DNA from: Mucilaginibacter roseus
GTDB lineage: Bacteria > Bacteroidota > Bacteroidia > Sphingobacteriales > Sphingobacteriaceae
Length of the DNA: 64,000 nucleotides
Direction of reading: 5' to 3'
NCBI RefSeq assembly: GCF_021215455.1
Contig: NZ_JAJPWV010000007.1
Coordinates: forward strand, 1-64,000
The notes under the pieces: generated by a model
Databases searched by the model: none
Told to the model about the DNA's origin: nothing
What the model saw: only the letters and a program-made list of their open reading frames with translations
Part shown: piece after piece, positions 23,132-30,431 of the stretch
How positions within the stretch are numbered: position 1 is the first letter of the stretch
Layout: the number at the start of each line of letters is the position of its first letter
Position numbers and translations under genes: made by a program

Positions 23132-23205
23132 GGCGGGGTAGCTCAGATGGTTAGAGCGTAGGATTCATAACCCTAAGGTCGGCAGTTCGATCCTGCTCCC
23201 CGCTA
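23132..23205 (+). tRNA. tRNA-Met (anticodon CAT)
   Basis: A 74-base cloverleaf can be drawn: acceptor GGCGGGG/CCCCGCT with a G-U first pair, D arm GCTC/GAGC, anticodon stem TAGGA/CCCTA with an A-C mismatch next to the loop TTCATAA, variable AGGTC and T arm GGCAG-TTCGATC-CTGCT. CAT is at 23166-23168. A paired first base argues against initiator tRNA, and the body is unlike tRNA-Ile2, so elongator Met is likeliest. CCA is not encoded (CAC follows the A discriminator). Confidence 0.95.
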
Positions 23206-23217
23206 CACTTAAAGATG

Positions 23218-23256
23218 AAGCAGTTACATTAAAATGTAGCTGCTTTTGTTTTTTCT
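23218..23256 (+). terminator. terminator after tRNA-Met
   Basis: AAGCAGTTACAT (23218-23229) pairs with ATGTAGCTGCTT (23234-23245), 12 pairs with one G-U, loop TAAA, followed by TTGTTTTTTCT. Confidence 0.85.
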
Positions 23257-23402
23257 AATAAACTATTTCTAAATAAGACACTTTTGCTTGGGCAATAAGC
23301 CAATTATTGTTACTCTATATTACGATATAAAAGTTATAATTCGTTTATTATATTAGTCTTTAGTAACCTTTTAAAAAGATAGTCACCTACAAGCTTGCTC
23401 AC

Positions 23403-24266
23403 ATGGATAGTAAGACTAAGCAACGAATTGCTGAATTTATTTGCGGAGACAACACAGAACAGTTTCCTATTTATCGAAGTTCCCAATATCTATCGAGATT
23501 TTTCAATGAAATAGGAATTAATGTAACACACGATGGTTCTACTCGTAAATGGTGGGTATTAAGTGTTATTAATGGTCTAAATGGTATAGATCTTCAGAAA
23601 GTGATTCTAAGATTAGTATCGCCAAAGCTGTATGGAGGGAATCGTGAGCAAATTAAATTAGCATTGTCGTCAATGAACGAAATTTTAGAGGTAGAATGTT
23701 TAAAGGTTGTTTTTGATGGGTTAGAACCGAAGCTTCGTAAACATACCCCAAATTATAATTTTGAACAGCCTATAAAAGAAAAGAAAGAAGAAGAACTTAA
23801 GCCTTTGCCTCCTCCAAATTGGGACGCATTGAACTTAGAATATGGCATAGCCGATATATTACAGAAGCGATGGGAAGAAGTTCAAAGGTGTATTGATGGC
23901 AAAGCCAATTTAAGTGCTCTTATTATGATGGGAAGTATGTTAGAGGGACTTCTATTAGGGGTAATGCAAAATCGACCACAAATAGCTAACACAGCTAAAT
24001 CAACACCAAAGAAGGATGGGAAACCTAAACATTTTGCAGAGTGGAGCTTAAGTGAACTGATAGACGTAGCACATGATAATAAATGGATACATTTAGATGT
24101 AAAAAAGTTTAGTCATGCATTAAGAGAGTTTAGAAACTTAGTACATCCTTATCAACAACTTGTTCTTCAGACTTTTCCAGATATAGACACAATTAACATA
24201 TCGTGGTTGGTTGTTCAGGCAGCATGCAATCATATCGCTGATTGGTTGAAAAGAAATCCCAAATAG
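23403..24266 (+). CDS. AbiJ/HEPN-like abortive-infection family protein
   Basis: The 287-residue protein looks two-domain. Residues about 1-118 (FPIYRSSQYLSRFFNEIG, DGSTRKWWV, LQKVILRLVSPKLYGG) resemble the N-terminal domain found on AbiJ-type proteins. A charged proline linker (125-138) leads to an all-helical part (about 143-283) with RCIDGKANLSALIMMGSMLE and LREFRNLVHPYQQ, where R241 or R244-N245 and H248 fit the HEPN R-x4-6-H RNase motif. Such proteins are thought to cleave RNA and halt growth on phage infection. It is clearly AT-richer than its neighbours and lies 200 bases past tRNA-Met, pointing to acquisition. No antitoxin gene is adjacent. Family call is by motif recognition only. 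Confidence 0.65.
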   Translation: MDSKTKQRIAEFICGDNTEQFPIYRSSQYLSRFFNEIGINVTHDGSTRKWWVLSVINGLNGIDLQKVILRLVSPKLYGGNREQIKLALSSMNEILEVECLKVVFDGLEPKLRKHTPNYNFEQPIKEKKEEELKPLPPPNWDALNLEYGIADILQKRWEEVQRCIDGKANLSALIMMGSMLEGLLLGVMQNRPQIANTAKSTPKKDGKPKHFAEWSLSELIDVAHDNKWIHLDVKKFSHALREFRNLVHPYQQLVLQTFPDIDTINISWLVVQAACNHIADWLKRNPK

Positions 24267-24347
24267 GTGATTTTTTAGTTTAGGACAATTGCTAAAAAAG
24301 TTGAATCGTCACACTTTGAATGTAGTTGTAAAATAGTTAAGGCCACC

Positions 24348-24857
24348 CTACTTCCCCAACAACCGCTGATATTCACCTTCTCCTCCACCCATCGTGTTAT
24401 TATTCAATTCTATACCGGCTTTTCTAAATGCCTGGATTAGCCGTTGGTCAAAGCCTTTAACATAGCTGGCAAAAGCCGTGGTGTCTTTTTCTTCGGGTAT
24501 TTGGGTAAATGAGTCATTGGTTTTTGCAAAGCGGTGTAGTACCGCTGTGGTGCTGTCGTTGCCTTCTAATAATATGGAGTCGCCACGCGCGGTAATCTTG
24601 GCCGCGTAGGGTTTGGTGAGGTATATTATGGAGTCGTTCTTAATTTTGTAAGGCAGCTTAAAGCGGCCTACCTTCTGGTTGTAAAATACAACGTTTTGGG
24701 CGTCTATGTCAAATTCGGTATAGCCGTTCGCCATCGAAAAGCGGTGCCATTTACCAGTGATAGAAAGTTTTTCTTTATCGGTTGATTTTTTAGCCTGCTG
24801 GTTGCAGGCTGTAAGGAGCAGCAATGTTATGGCAGATAAATAGATGATAGCTCTCAT
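24348..24857 (-). CDS. small lipoprotein, function unknown
   Basis: A 169-residue protein with a lipoprotein signal (MRAIIYLSAITLLLLTAC, Cys 18). After a short Lys-rich linker it reads ITGKWHRFSMANGYTEFDID and later DSILLEGNDSTTAVLHRF, alternating strands that suggest a small lipocalin-like or beta-sandwich fold, but I do not recognise the family. The C-terminus is Gly-rich (NNNTMGGGEGEYQRLLGK). It follows the GH11 xylanase gene on the same strand, but a terminator separates them. It converges with the AbiJ-like gene. Confidence 0.75.
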   Translation of the reverse strand: MRAIIYLSAITLLLLTACNQQAKKSTDKEKLSITGKWHRFSMANGYTEFDIDAQNVVFYNQKVGRFKLPYKIKNDSIIYLTKPYAAKITARGDSILLEGNDSTTAVLHRFAKTNDSFTQIPEEKDTTAFASYVKGFDQRLIQAFRKAGIELNNNTMGGGEGEYQRLLGK

Positions 24858-24918: not shown

Positions 24919-25683
24919 TTATTGTGCCCAAATGGTGCAGTTAATACTGCCGGCGGTGTTGCTGCCCCATGTTTCAGAAACCATAATAGCCGGAATGTTC
25001 AGCTGGCCAAGTGTGTAACCATAGCTTTGCCATTTGTTGTAGTGGTTGGCAAATGTAATTACACGGTTTGAGCCGGGCGTAACCTTGGTAACCCGCGAGC
25101 TGTAGATCTGCCTGAAGCCGTCGCCGCCGTCAATGTTTTTGCCGGTCATCCAGCGCGTCCAAACGTTGTAGCCTGCGCCGTCGCTGGTAAACGTACCCAA
25201 AAAGGTGCCGGTATGCGGCGACTCGGTGCCCCAGGTTTCGTTAACGTAGTACTCGTAATACGGGCTCCGGCTCCAGCCATACCAACCAAACGTGCCACCG
25301 CCCGAGTTGGAGTAACTACCCAGGTTGTAGCCAATTTTGTAAGTAGGCGAGCCAACGGAATAGCCTTTACCGCAGGTAAAGTTGCCGTTAAAGCCGCTCC
25401 AGTTCACGCTGTAGTTTCCGCCGCTTCCGTTGGCATAGTTAACGGTACCAGTTGCGCCGTCGCTTTTCCATAACGACCAAAAGAAGCCATTGTGCGTGCC
25501 CGATTGGTAGGTGTTGGTTTTAAGCCGGCTTTTGTCGACAGCGGCTTCGGCTTTAGGCTTCTCAACAGGTTTGGCCGAGTCTTTTTTACAGCCCGAAATT
25601 AAGGATGAGCAAACAAGCAACGCAATTGCAGTTGCAACGGCAACCTTCCCGGTCACCATTGGTGAAAAGTTTTGTTTTTTCAT
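24919..25683 (-). CDS. GH11 family endo-1,4-beta-xylanase
   Basis: ATG 25681-25683 gives a 254-residue protein with a lipoprotein signal (LLVCSSLISGC). The mature part is a single GH11 jelly-roll: GFFWSLWKSDG, VNYANGSGGNYSVNW, GKGY, then RSPYYEYYVNETWG with the nucleophile Glu near residue 142, and IMVSETWGSNTAGS with the acid/base Glu near 236. GH11 enzymes are strict retaining xylanases. The acid/base context (SETWG) differs from the usual TEGY. A surface-anchored xylanase fits plant-litter feeding. The frame opens 17 codons earlier, but that start lacks a signal. Confidence 0.93.
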   Translation of the reverse strand: MKKQNFSPMVTGKVAVATAIALLVCSSLISGCKKDSAKPVEKPKAEAAVDKSRLKTNTYQSGTHNGFFWSLWKSDGATGTVNYANGSGGNYSVNWSGFNGNFTCGKGYSVGSPTYKIGYNLGSYSNSGGGTFGWYGWSRSPYYEYYVNETWGTESPHTGTFLGTFTSDGAGYNVWTRWMTGKNIDGGDGFRQIYSSRVTKVTPGSNRVITFANHYNKWQSYGYTLGQLNIPAIMVSETWGSNTAGSINCTIWAQ

Positions 25684-25961
25684 AATTTGGAGTAATTGAT
25701 TAAAACGAAGGTAGCTGCCGGGCAGCCGCTGCAATGGCTGTAATGATTAAAAGTGTTGCACAAATGTTTACTTGGCGAGAAAAAATTACGCCATGTTAAT
25801 TTGCTGTATAACAGATATTTGTAATTTTACAAAAATTCTTTTTAACTATTGATTTAACGTTTTACAACAATGGATTAGCCGCATTTTGGTTACAAACTCC
25901 CGCAATTAAGGTACAAGTAACAAGCTGCGTAATCCGACATTTGGATATCAAATAAATAAAA

Positions 25962-28858: not shown

Positions 28859-29206
28859 ATGGCCGTAACAAAGGAAAAAAACGAAATAAATTATCACAGC
28901 GCTGAAGAGTGTCCCATAACTGCGACTATAGATGTGATCGGCGGCAAGTGGAAACCCCCGATTATATGGCTGTTGCTTAAAGGACCGCTGCGTTTTGGCG
29001 AGCTGCATAAAATCATACCCGGCATGGCGCTTAAGGTTTTATCGCGACAGCTAAAGGAATTGGAAGCCGACGGTATCATTATCCGTAAGGCGTACCCCGA
29101 GGTGCCTCCAAGGGTAGAGTACCGCCTCAGTGAAAAGGGGGAGACGTTGAGAGAGGTGATATTTTTATTATCAGACTGGAGCCGGAAGCATATCATTAAT
29201 GCATAG
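28859..29206 (+). CDS. HxlR family transcriptional regulator
   Basis: ATG 28859 gives 115 residues; a GTG 21 bases earlier abuts the operator and is less likely. The winged-helix pattern is clear: ECPITATIDVIGGKWKPPIIWLL with the conserved Cys near 18, LRFGELHKIIPGMALKVLSRQLKELEADGII as recognition region (key residues R-F-x-E-L and L-x-x-L-E-x-D-G) and a C-terminal dimer helix. HxlR proteins sense aldehydes, quinones or hypochlorite through the conserved Cys. It faces the short SDR gene and probably represses it. Confidence 0.93.
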   Translation: MAVTKEKNEINYHSAEECPITATIDVIGGKWKPPIIWLLLKGPLRFGELHKIIPGMALKVLSRQLKELEADGIIIRKAYPEVPPRVEYRLSEKGETLREVIFLLSDWSRKHIINA

Positions 29207-29235
29207 TAGCATTGCTTAAAAGTGCAATGCTACTA
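29204..29235. terminator. hairpin at the HxlR stop codon
   Basis: TAGTAGCATTGC, which includes the TAG stop, pairs perfectly over 12 bases with GCAATGCTACTA across an 8-base loop. No T-run follows on either strand, so it may be an mRNA 3' stabiliser rather than a true intrinsic terminator. Confidence 0.55.
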
Positions 29236-29244
29236 TAGCATATA

Positions 29245-30324
29245 CTACTTACTCGCCTTAATTTCTCCGCCCTTTGAGCAATTGCTTGAGGTCCAGTTAC
29301 CTGATAAGGAAGCGGCGCTTCCGTTTAACGTGATCACCATGTCATTACAAGGCGTAAGCCCATTAGGATTCTCAAACTCGTAAGGTGTAGCTACATTAAG
29401 CGTTATGCGGTCGCCCACCAGCTTGCCGGCAAACCTGCGCTTTTGACGTGAACTGTTAGGACGGGTTATTTCAAACTGACCCCGTATTACATCGCCGCAT
29501 TGGTTAAGGTTTAGGGCTAGTGTCCATGGGCCGCCTTCCGAGTCGGGGTTGGTCATGCTGCCATTATAGGTTCCATCATAATCACGTTTAGCCTTAAAGT
29601 ATACCAATGTGGAGTTATCAGCAGTTATTGCATCCCCTTCGTTTACGTAAACGAATTTACCTTGCATCAATACCTGCAACAACTGCTCGGTTGTCGCCGT
29701 CGGATTGTTCTTAACCAGTTGTCGGCCCACGGCATTATTATGCAAGTCCATTTTTTTGGCGTATGTGTCGCCTGCTTCTGATTCATGCGCGGTAGCCATT
29801 TTCTCAGCAAAGGCATTGTCAATATTTTTTGCCATCAAAACATTCCAATATGCGTGGCGTATAGCATCGGCCTTGTTGTCCTCAAAACCGGCATCCTTGT
29901 CGCATGGGTAATTATCCTGAGCTGCTTTGCCTGCAGGTACTACTGTTTTATATGCTTTATAGCTTTTTGTTGGATTTAATATAACTACCTTCCATTCTTC
30001 AGGCGTTAGTTTTTGCGCGATGTTAGTTATACCGGTGGTTTCCAGTTGGCGGTTTGCCAGGCTCGAAGTTTTGCCGTATTTAAAATAGTTAAATAGCTTT
30101 CGGCCAAGTGCTGCTTCATCGTTTTTTAAACCAGGCTCAGCACCGGTTATCTTTTCGTAAGCGGCTATAACCTGTTCAATAGTTGGCAGCGGGCTTACCG
30201 TTTTAAGTTCGGCCTCGGTAACGGGGCCATCAGGTAAAGTTGTAGGGTCATCGGTTGATTTTTTACTGCACGAGAAAAAAACGAACAATAAAAGGAGAAC
30301 AGCTTTGCAGGATAGATTTTTCAT
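29245..30324 (-). CDS. DUF6973-like lipoprotein with C-terminal beta domain
   Basis: A 359-residue lipoprotein (LLLFVFFSC, Cys 19). Residues about 60-225 hold DNKADAIRHAYWN near 150, ATAHESEAGD near 174 and MDLHNNAVGR near 192, the His-rich pattern I associate with DUF6973. The clustered His, Glu and Asn could form a metal or hydrolase site, which is inference. The C-terminal ~115 residues (YDGTYNGSMTNPD ... GNWTSSNCSKGG) look like a small beta-barrel seen on many Bacteroidota lipoproteins. It is monocistronic and convergent with the HxlR gene. Confidence 0.75.
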   Translation of the reverse strand: MKNLSCKAVLLLLFVFFSCSKKSTDDPTTLPDGPVTEAELKTVSPLPTIEQVIAAYEKITGAEPGLKNDEAALGRKLFNYFKYGKTSSLANRQLETTGITNIAQKLTPEEWKVVILNPTKSYKAYKTVVPAGKAAQDNYPCDKDAGFEDNKADAIRHAYWNVLMAKNIDNAFAEKMATAHESEAGDTYAKKMDLHNNAVGRQLVKNNPTATTEQLLQVLMQGKFVYVNEGDAITADNSTLVYFKAKRDYDGTYNGSMTNPDSEGGPWTLALNLNQCGDVIRGQFEITRPNSSRQKRRFAGKLVGDRITLNVATPYEFENPNGLTPCNDMVITLNGSAASLSGNWTSSNCSKGGEIKASK

Positions 30325-30431
30325 AACTGATGTTTTGCTTAGGTTAGATGTTTTAATAAGCGAAACAAATATTATAAATTCTCTATGCTTAGGCTTAATT
30401 ATATGTCGTTAAAGTTATAAAATACCGATTT

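Follow-up and report, generated by a model that had tools for sequence, protein, structure and literature searches.

An AbiJ-NTD1 and HEPN-like gene at the tRNA-Met locus of Mucilaginibacter roseus, a probable horizontally acquired abortive-infection gene

Introduction

The domain AbiJ-NTD1 was defined by Anantharaman et al. (2013, PMC3710099) as an N-terminal domain of about 120–140 aa that is fused to many effectors: HEPN domains of the AbiJ, DUF4145 and Ymh types, HKD (PLD) phosphoesterase/nuclease domains, S/T/Y kinases, restriction endonucleases (REases) and nucleoside deoxyribosyltransferases. In the same study the N-terminal domain was proposed to act as a sensor that restrains a HEPN RNase. 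The architecture of the gene that we describe here, NTD1 followed by HEPN, was therefore already on record in 2013 (PMC3710099), and our gene adds a member to it. One relative discussed below matches component B of PD-lambda-3, which has been described as an abortive infection system (PMC13190303).

The gene lies in a 64,000-nt stretch of Mucilaginibacter roseus DNA, referred to here as the window. A preliminary description, made from the letters of the sequence, had proposed that it joins an AbiJ-type N-terminal region to a HEPN RNase domain and that it is a candidate acquired phage defence. From the analyses reported here we infer that it is probably a horizontally acquired, stand-alone abortive-infection gene, a reading that draws on its two-domain anatomy, the modularity of its N-terminal domain, a conserved R-N-x2-H motif, the defence-rich neighbourhoods of its relatives and the replacement of cargo at its site. 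Newly added by our work are the assignment to NTD1, the shortened motif, the lack of a library profile and a swap of cargo with a sister genome at a tRNA-Met hotspot.

Results

Gene, composition and immediate surroundings

The AbiJ-NTD1 + HEPN (DUF4145-like) gene occupies positions 23403..24266 of the + strand, begins with ATG and encodes 287 aa; its reading frame is intact in the ORF list, and R241, R244, N245 and H248 are located as first described. GC averages 44.8% (SD 3.0%) over 864-base windows of this DNA but is 35.5% in the gene, a level as low as which is seen in only 1.35% of those windows; the GC3 of the gene is 26.8%, compared with 46–62% in seven adjacent genes. The AT-richness originally noted from counts of G+C in 60-base blocks is thus real, and our recount returned exactly the same values (17, 19 and 17 in the blocks starting at 23461, 23641 and 24061, and 26 in that at 24601).

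The gene stands alone about 200 bases past a tRNA, as had been stated: tRNA-Met (CAT; 23132..23206, +) ends 196 bp before the ATG. An intrinsic terminator (23217..23246, +) ends the tRNA transcript, so that the gene must use its own promoter; a search near the gene for a promoter pattern of the Bacteroidota type found none. Downstream is a convergent lipoprotein-like gene (24348-24857, -), and no ORF of 60 aa or longer that could be a partner lies between tRNA-Met with its terminator and this convergent gene, in agreement with the earlier claim that a partner antitoxin is lacking. No defence gene adjoins the window copy. The slot is also adjoined by a gene for a GH11-family xylanase-like secreted protein (24919-25734, -), which is kept in the sister genome considered below.

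The AlphaFold model of the 287-aa protein (pLDDT 89.5, pTM 0.58) consists of helical N- and C-terminal domains joined by a disordered linker, residues 116-139 (23748..23819, +), which was modelled with low confidence; because of the pTM value, the placement of the two domains relative to each other is uncertain. Searches of Pfam, NCBIfam, PADLOC and PHROGs with the window protein gave no significant match, to a non-defence family or to any other; sequence searches of the PDB with profiles found no relative, a viral structure library gave no usable match, and annotated phages contained no relative.

The tRNA-Met site

The genome most closely related to that of the window, G168 (locus L084), has flanks that are 88-90% identical to those of the gene in the window; homology ends at window position 23257 and restarts at 24346. 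Alignment of the two loci therefore delimits a segment, 23258..24345 with a GC of 34.0%, that is absent from the sister genome. The corresponding slot in L084 is filled by an unrelated segment of 2,070 bp (GC 34.2%) with one gene, which is AT-rich, lies at L084:3244-5121 (+) and encodes a 625-aa SIR2-domain protein with partial matches to the PADLOC models for ThsA, PDC-S25, LmuA and Dsr. This SIR2 gene is probably a single-gene defence system in its own right. The sister genome also lacks window positions 29200-30429 (compared with L084 10052-10091), a stretch in which lies a lipoprotein-like gene of 359 aa at 29245-30324 (-).

The START-domain gene that usually adjoins tRNA-Met is present in 118 of 118 good genomes of the genus, and full-length relatives of the window gene were found in 2 of 150 genus genomes; in the second of these, G815, the relative and the START gene are on different contigs. 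Presence of the gene at this tRNA in relatives had been put forward as a check, and neither conservation at the site nor normal composition was observed. That the gene is native to the lineage and simply odd in composition would accord with its intact reading frame and with slot borders that sit neatly between the terminator and the convergent gene. Such a reading is contradicted, however, by the occurrence of full-length relatives in so few genus genomes and by the sister genome, which lacks the gene at this site and carries a different one, and it runs against the outlying GC and GC3; we consider it extremely improbable. Because of the composition, the rarity and the different, defence-type gene in the sister slot, horizontal acquisition, as first suggested, is well supported.

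The view that the tRNA serves as an insertion site is supported by other species of the genus, in which islands integrate at the same tRNA. In five of them (L086, L091, L093, L102 and L130) tRNA-Met is cut at about base 39 by an element with a tyrosine integrase; in the four that have both ends on a single contig (G198, G121, G051 and G789), an uninterrupted tRNA follows 17-56 kb after the split. A tyrosine or serine recombinase, or a fragment of one, lies within 2.5 kb at 12 of 49 tRNA-Met loci, a count made without a control site. Examples of other cargo at the site are a type I restriction-modification (R-M) system in L138, a type II methylase, possibly accompanied by a REase, in L128 and, in L118, a PDC-S25 SIR2 protein. 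In relatives this tRNA both receives site-specific insertions and is accompanied by differing cargo, which marks the site as a hotspot, and the observations support the conclusion that defence genes are exchanged there. At one further locus (L139) the START gene and the first tRNA-Met match are separated by about 8 kb, compared with the usual distance of about 150 bp, which suggests that DNA was inserted at the opposite flank of the tRNA.

The window insert itself contains no integrase, no partial tRNA copy and no att repeat. Since neither an integrase nor an att repeat is found beside the gene, it likely entered by flank recombination or was left behind by decay of a former island.

The N-terminal domain

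Residues 1-115 (23403..23747, +) form, in the AlphaFold model, five to six helices and a beta hairpin, and we regard them as a putative sensor of the AbiJ-NTD1 type on the basis of this model, of profile comparison and of the set of partners to which the domain is joined in relatives. The same N-terminal domain is joined in L040 to Abi_C (PADLOC AbiJ match, 1.9e-27), in L037 to Ymh (PADLOC PD-Lambda-3_B match over the full length, 1e-84) and in L034 to PLDc_2, with L078-L081 looking alike. In L036, and by eye likewise in L002, the partner is a nucleoside-deoxyribosyltransferase-like part; in L042 and others it is a restriction-enzyme-like domain, assigned by eye and, in L042, without a Pfam match; in L038 it is another helical domain, with a PADLOC PDC-S32 match. 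The N-terminal ~120 positions of the PADLOC Stk2 model (PDLC02375) match the N-terminal domains of L022, L034, L040 and L042. A profile search had been suggested as a check on the AbiJ-type assignment: the models for AbiJ, PD-Lambda-3_B and Stk2 match relatives, and the window protein itself has no significant match.

Because the partners found in relatives equal the set in the published definition (PMC3710099), we call the domain AbiJ-NTD1, a label that rests on the partners; to this extent the AbiJ-type N-terminal region of the preliminary description holds. No NTD1 model was matched in Pfam, from which AbiJ-NTD1 is absent. A further expected trait of the NTD1 family is a predicted secondary structure resembling that of NTD3 and NTD4. 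In profile comparisons the domain matched the PLD- and Abi_C-linked N-terminal domains very strongly (99.8%, E 2e-30) and AbiJ_NTD3 proteins moderately (hhalign probability 75%, E 2.5e-5), and the PLD- and Abi_C-linked domains matched NTD3 with a probability of 87.7%. The Pfam name AbiJ_NTD3 was considered for the window domain and dropped, since there was no match in the window genome and the profile-profile score was only moderate. Solved folds gave no confident match to the domain, the best being the AIM2 pyrin at chance level (probability 0.44, E 1.1); pyrin and CARD matches, with E > 1, were dismissed as those expected by chance for a helical bundle.

The C-terminal domain and its motif

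The C-terminal HEPN-like domain comprises residues 140-284 (23820..24254, +) and was delimited from DUF4145 matches, the AlphaFold model and fold matches in the PDB. Seven of eight family members match DUF4145 weakly (best E 0.0011); the window protein does so below threshold (E 0.22, 12.1 bits against a Pfam gathering score of 23.1), for which reason we term it DUF4145-like and not a DUF4145 member. It has no match to Abi_C or to the PADLOC AbiJ models. An AlphaFold model had been called for as a check, and comparison of the modelled domain with the PDB by Foldseek retrieved HEPN proteins as the credible matches (7ae8, 1ufb, 1wol, 7bxo, 1o3u and 2hsb, with probabilities of 0.63-0.97, and also 6m6u), none of them with E < 0.001. 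The model thus supports a HEPN helical fold for this domain, and the weak DUF4145 similarity of the homologues and their invariant R-N-x2-H point the same way, as had been claimed.

The predicted RNase active-site motif is R241-E-F-R244-N245-L-V-H248 (24123..24146, +). In the eight-member alignment R241, R244, N245, H248, P249 and E181 are invariant. When 15 C-terminal domains are compared, R244, N245, H248, P249, E181, R156, E159, D232, K235 and H238 are invariant, and R241 is replaced by K in one (L032); in distant relatives this position is Q. R244, N245 and H248 are retained in the more distant C-terminal domains too. The canonical HEPN motif is Rx4-6H with a polar residue after the R. In the motif as first assigned, R241-x6-H248 is, as Rx6H, within the canonical spacing, but R241 is not strictly kept in distant relatives; R244-N245-x2-H248 is, as Rx3H, one residue too short. 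RNase activity is, because of this shorter spacing, not certain. It is conceivable that the shortened R-N-x2-H belongs to a catalytically inactive HEPN domain that binds RNA or protein and defends by blocking a phage component, and activity has been lost in some HEPN families according to the literature. Yet R244, N245 and H248 are kept in 15 of 15 C-terminal domains and beyond them, as would be the case for a catalytic site, and the R241 spacing conforms to the rule; loss of activity therefore seems to us quite unlikely.

The same HEPN domain occurs in L025-L033 behind another N-terminal domain, with the motif YVLDFSN...SKAKRLRAFW and no Pfam match in the two members scanned. As the HEPN domain is found behind a different N-terminal domain and the window-type N-terminal domain is found with other effectors, both halves of the protein are exchanged.

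Relatives and their neighbourhoods

Full-length relatives, at about 27-39% identity, were found in further genera of the family, in the wider phylum and in Prevotella and Streptomyces plasmid records. Such relatives were also matched in six IMG/VR contigs (L147-L152). In the phage contig L147 the relative lies directly after a terminase-like gene, assigned by eye, and just before portal-like genes, and the matches in L148-L152 are similar; from the position in L147, phages may themselves carry a gene of the NTD1-HEPN type.

A type IIG R-M gene lies directly upstream of the relative in L094, and a similar methylase operon is present in L098. A PDC-S37-type DUF4011 helicase is encoded near the relative in L097 (7511-12202) and in the near-identical L100; in Streptomyces the neighbour has weaker PDC-S37 matches (L017) or is annotated as an AAA protein (L021). 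The presence of a large helicase/REase gene beside relatives in two phyla (L097, L100, L017 and L021) suggests a recurrent two-gene unit. Other neighbours of relatives are CARF6 (L090), a caspase (L016) and AbiH (L146).

These neighbourhoods bear on whether the gene serves phage defence at all, or is a solitary HEPN protein that acts as a toxin, or in stress or persistence, for a mobile element or for what remains of one. HEPN domains are common as toxins of toxin-antitoxin pairs (literature), the tRNA-linked site hosts islands of 17-56 kb, and the window copy has no defence partner, all of which would suit a mobile-element toxin. Homologues in R-M, PDC-S37, CARF and AbiH contexts tell against it, however, as do the sharing of NTD1 with proteins that match phage-defence models and the absence of both an integrase and an antitoxin gene nearby, and we judge this explanation unlikely.

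Discussion

If the gene is an abortive-infection gene, as we favour, the N-terminal domain would recognise a phage component or an infection signal and, until then, would hold the HEPN domain silent, an arrangement that would explain the lack of a separate antitoxin gene. The released HEPN domain, probably dimeric, would cleave RNA in a metal-free reaction through H248 and the basic R244/R241, and growth would be halted before phage release. A wider proposal, which we put forward tentatively and with considerable doubt, is that NTD1 is a general sensor of one common phage-induced signal, placed on many killing domains, that the window protein is the HEPN form with a shortened R-N-x2-H, and that single-gene defences of this kind are exchanged throughout the lineage at the tRNA-Met slot.

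The locus has significance in two respects. It represents a putative defence family that is missed by current profile libraries, though its relatives adjoin known defence genes. It also provides a natural experiment, in that two close genomes hold different single-gene defence candidates, NTD1-HEPN and SIR2, in the same slot, which makes the AbiJ-NTD sensor/effector modularity proposed in 2013 directly testable.

Among described systems, the AbiJ-NTD1 + DUF4145-type HEPN proteins (PMC3710099; example gi 113972064) share with the window protein an N-terminal domain of ~120-140 aa, the same effector partners, a C-terminal HEPN domain that weakly resembles DUF4145 and the suggested combination of sensor and suicide RNase. 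The window protein, which was likened to them by description, differs in scoring below the DUF4145 cut-off, in its R-N-x2-H spacing and in standing alone beside a tRNA. AbiJ of the L. lactis type (PADLOC PDLC02347, Pfam Abi_C) follows the same logic of N-terminal domain plus HEPN, and L040 joins a window-type N-terminal domain to Abi_C; the window protein, in contrast, has a HEPN domain of a different family, without an AbiJ or Abi_C match. Component B of PD-lambda-3 (PADLOC PDLC03987) is matched over its full length by L037, in which a related N-terminal domain precedes a Ymh HEPN domain, but its HEPN family is Ymh and the window protein does not match the model. The anti-phage kinase Stk2 (PADLOC PDLC02375) resembles the relatives in the N-terminal part of its model, and its effector is a protein kinase rather than a HEPN domain. 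Finally, among solved folds the nearest to the C-terminal domain are those of MntA-HepT and other HEPN toxins (PDB 7ae8, 6m6u and 7bxo); toxins of that type need a separate antitoxin gene, whereas the HEPN-like domain described here is fused to an NTD.
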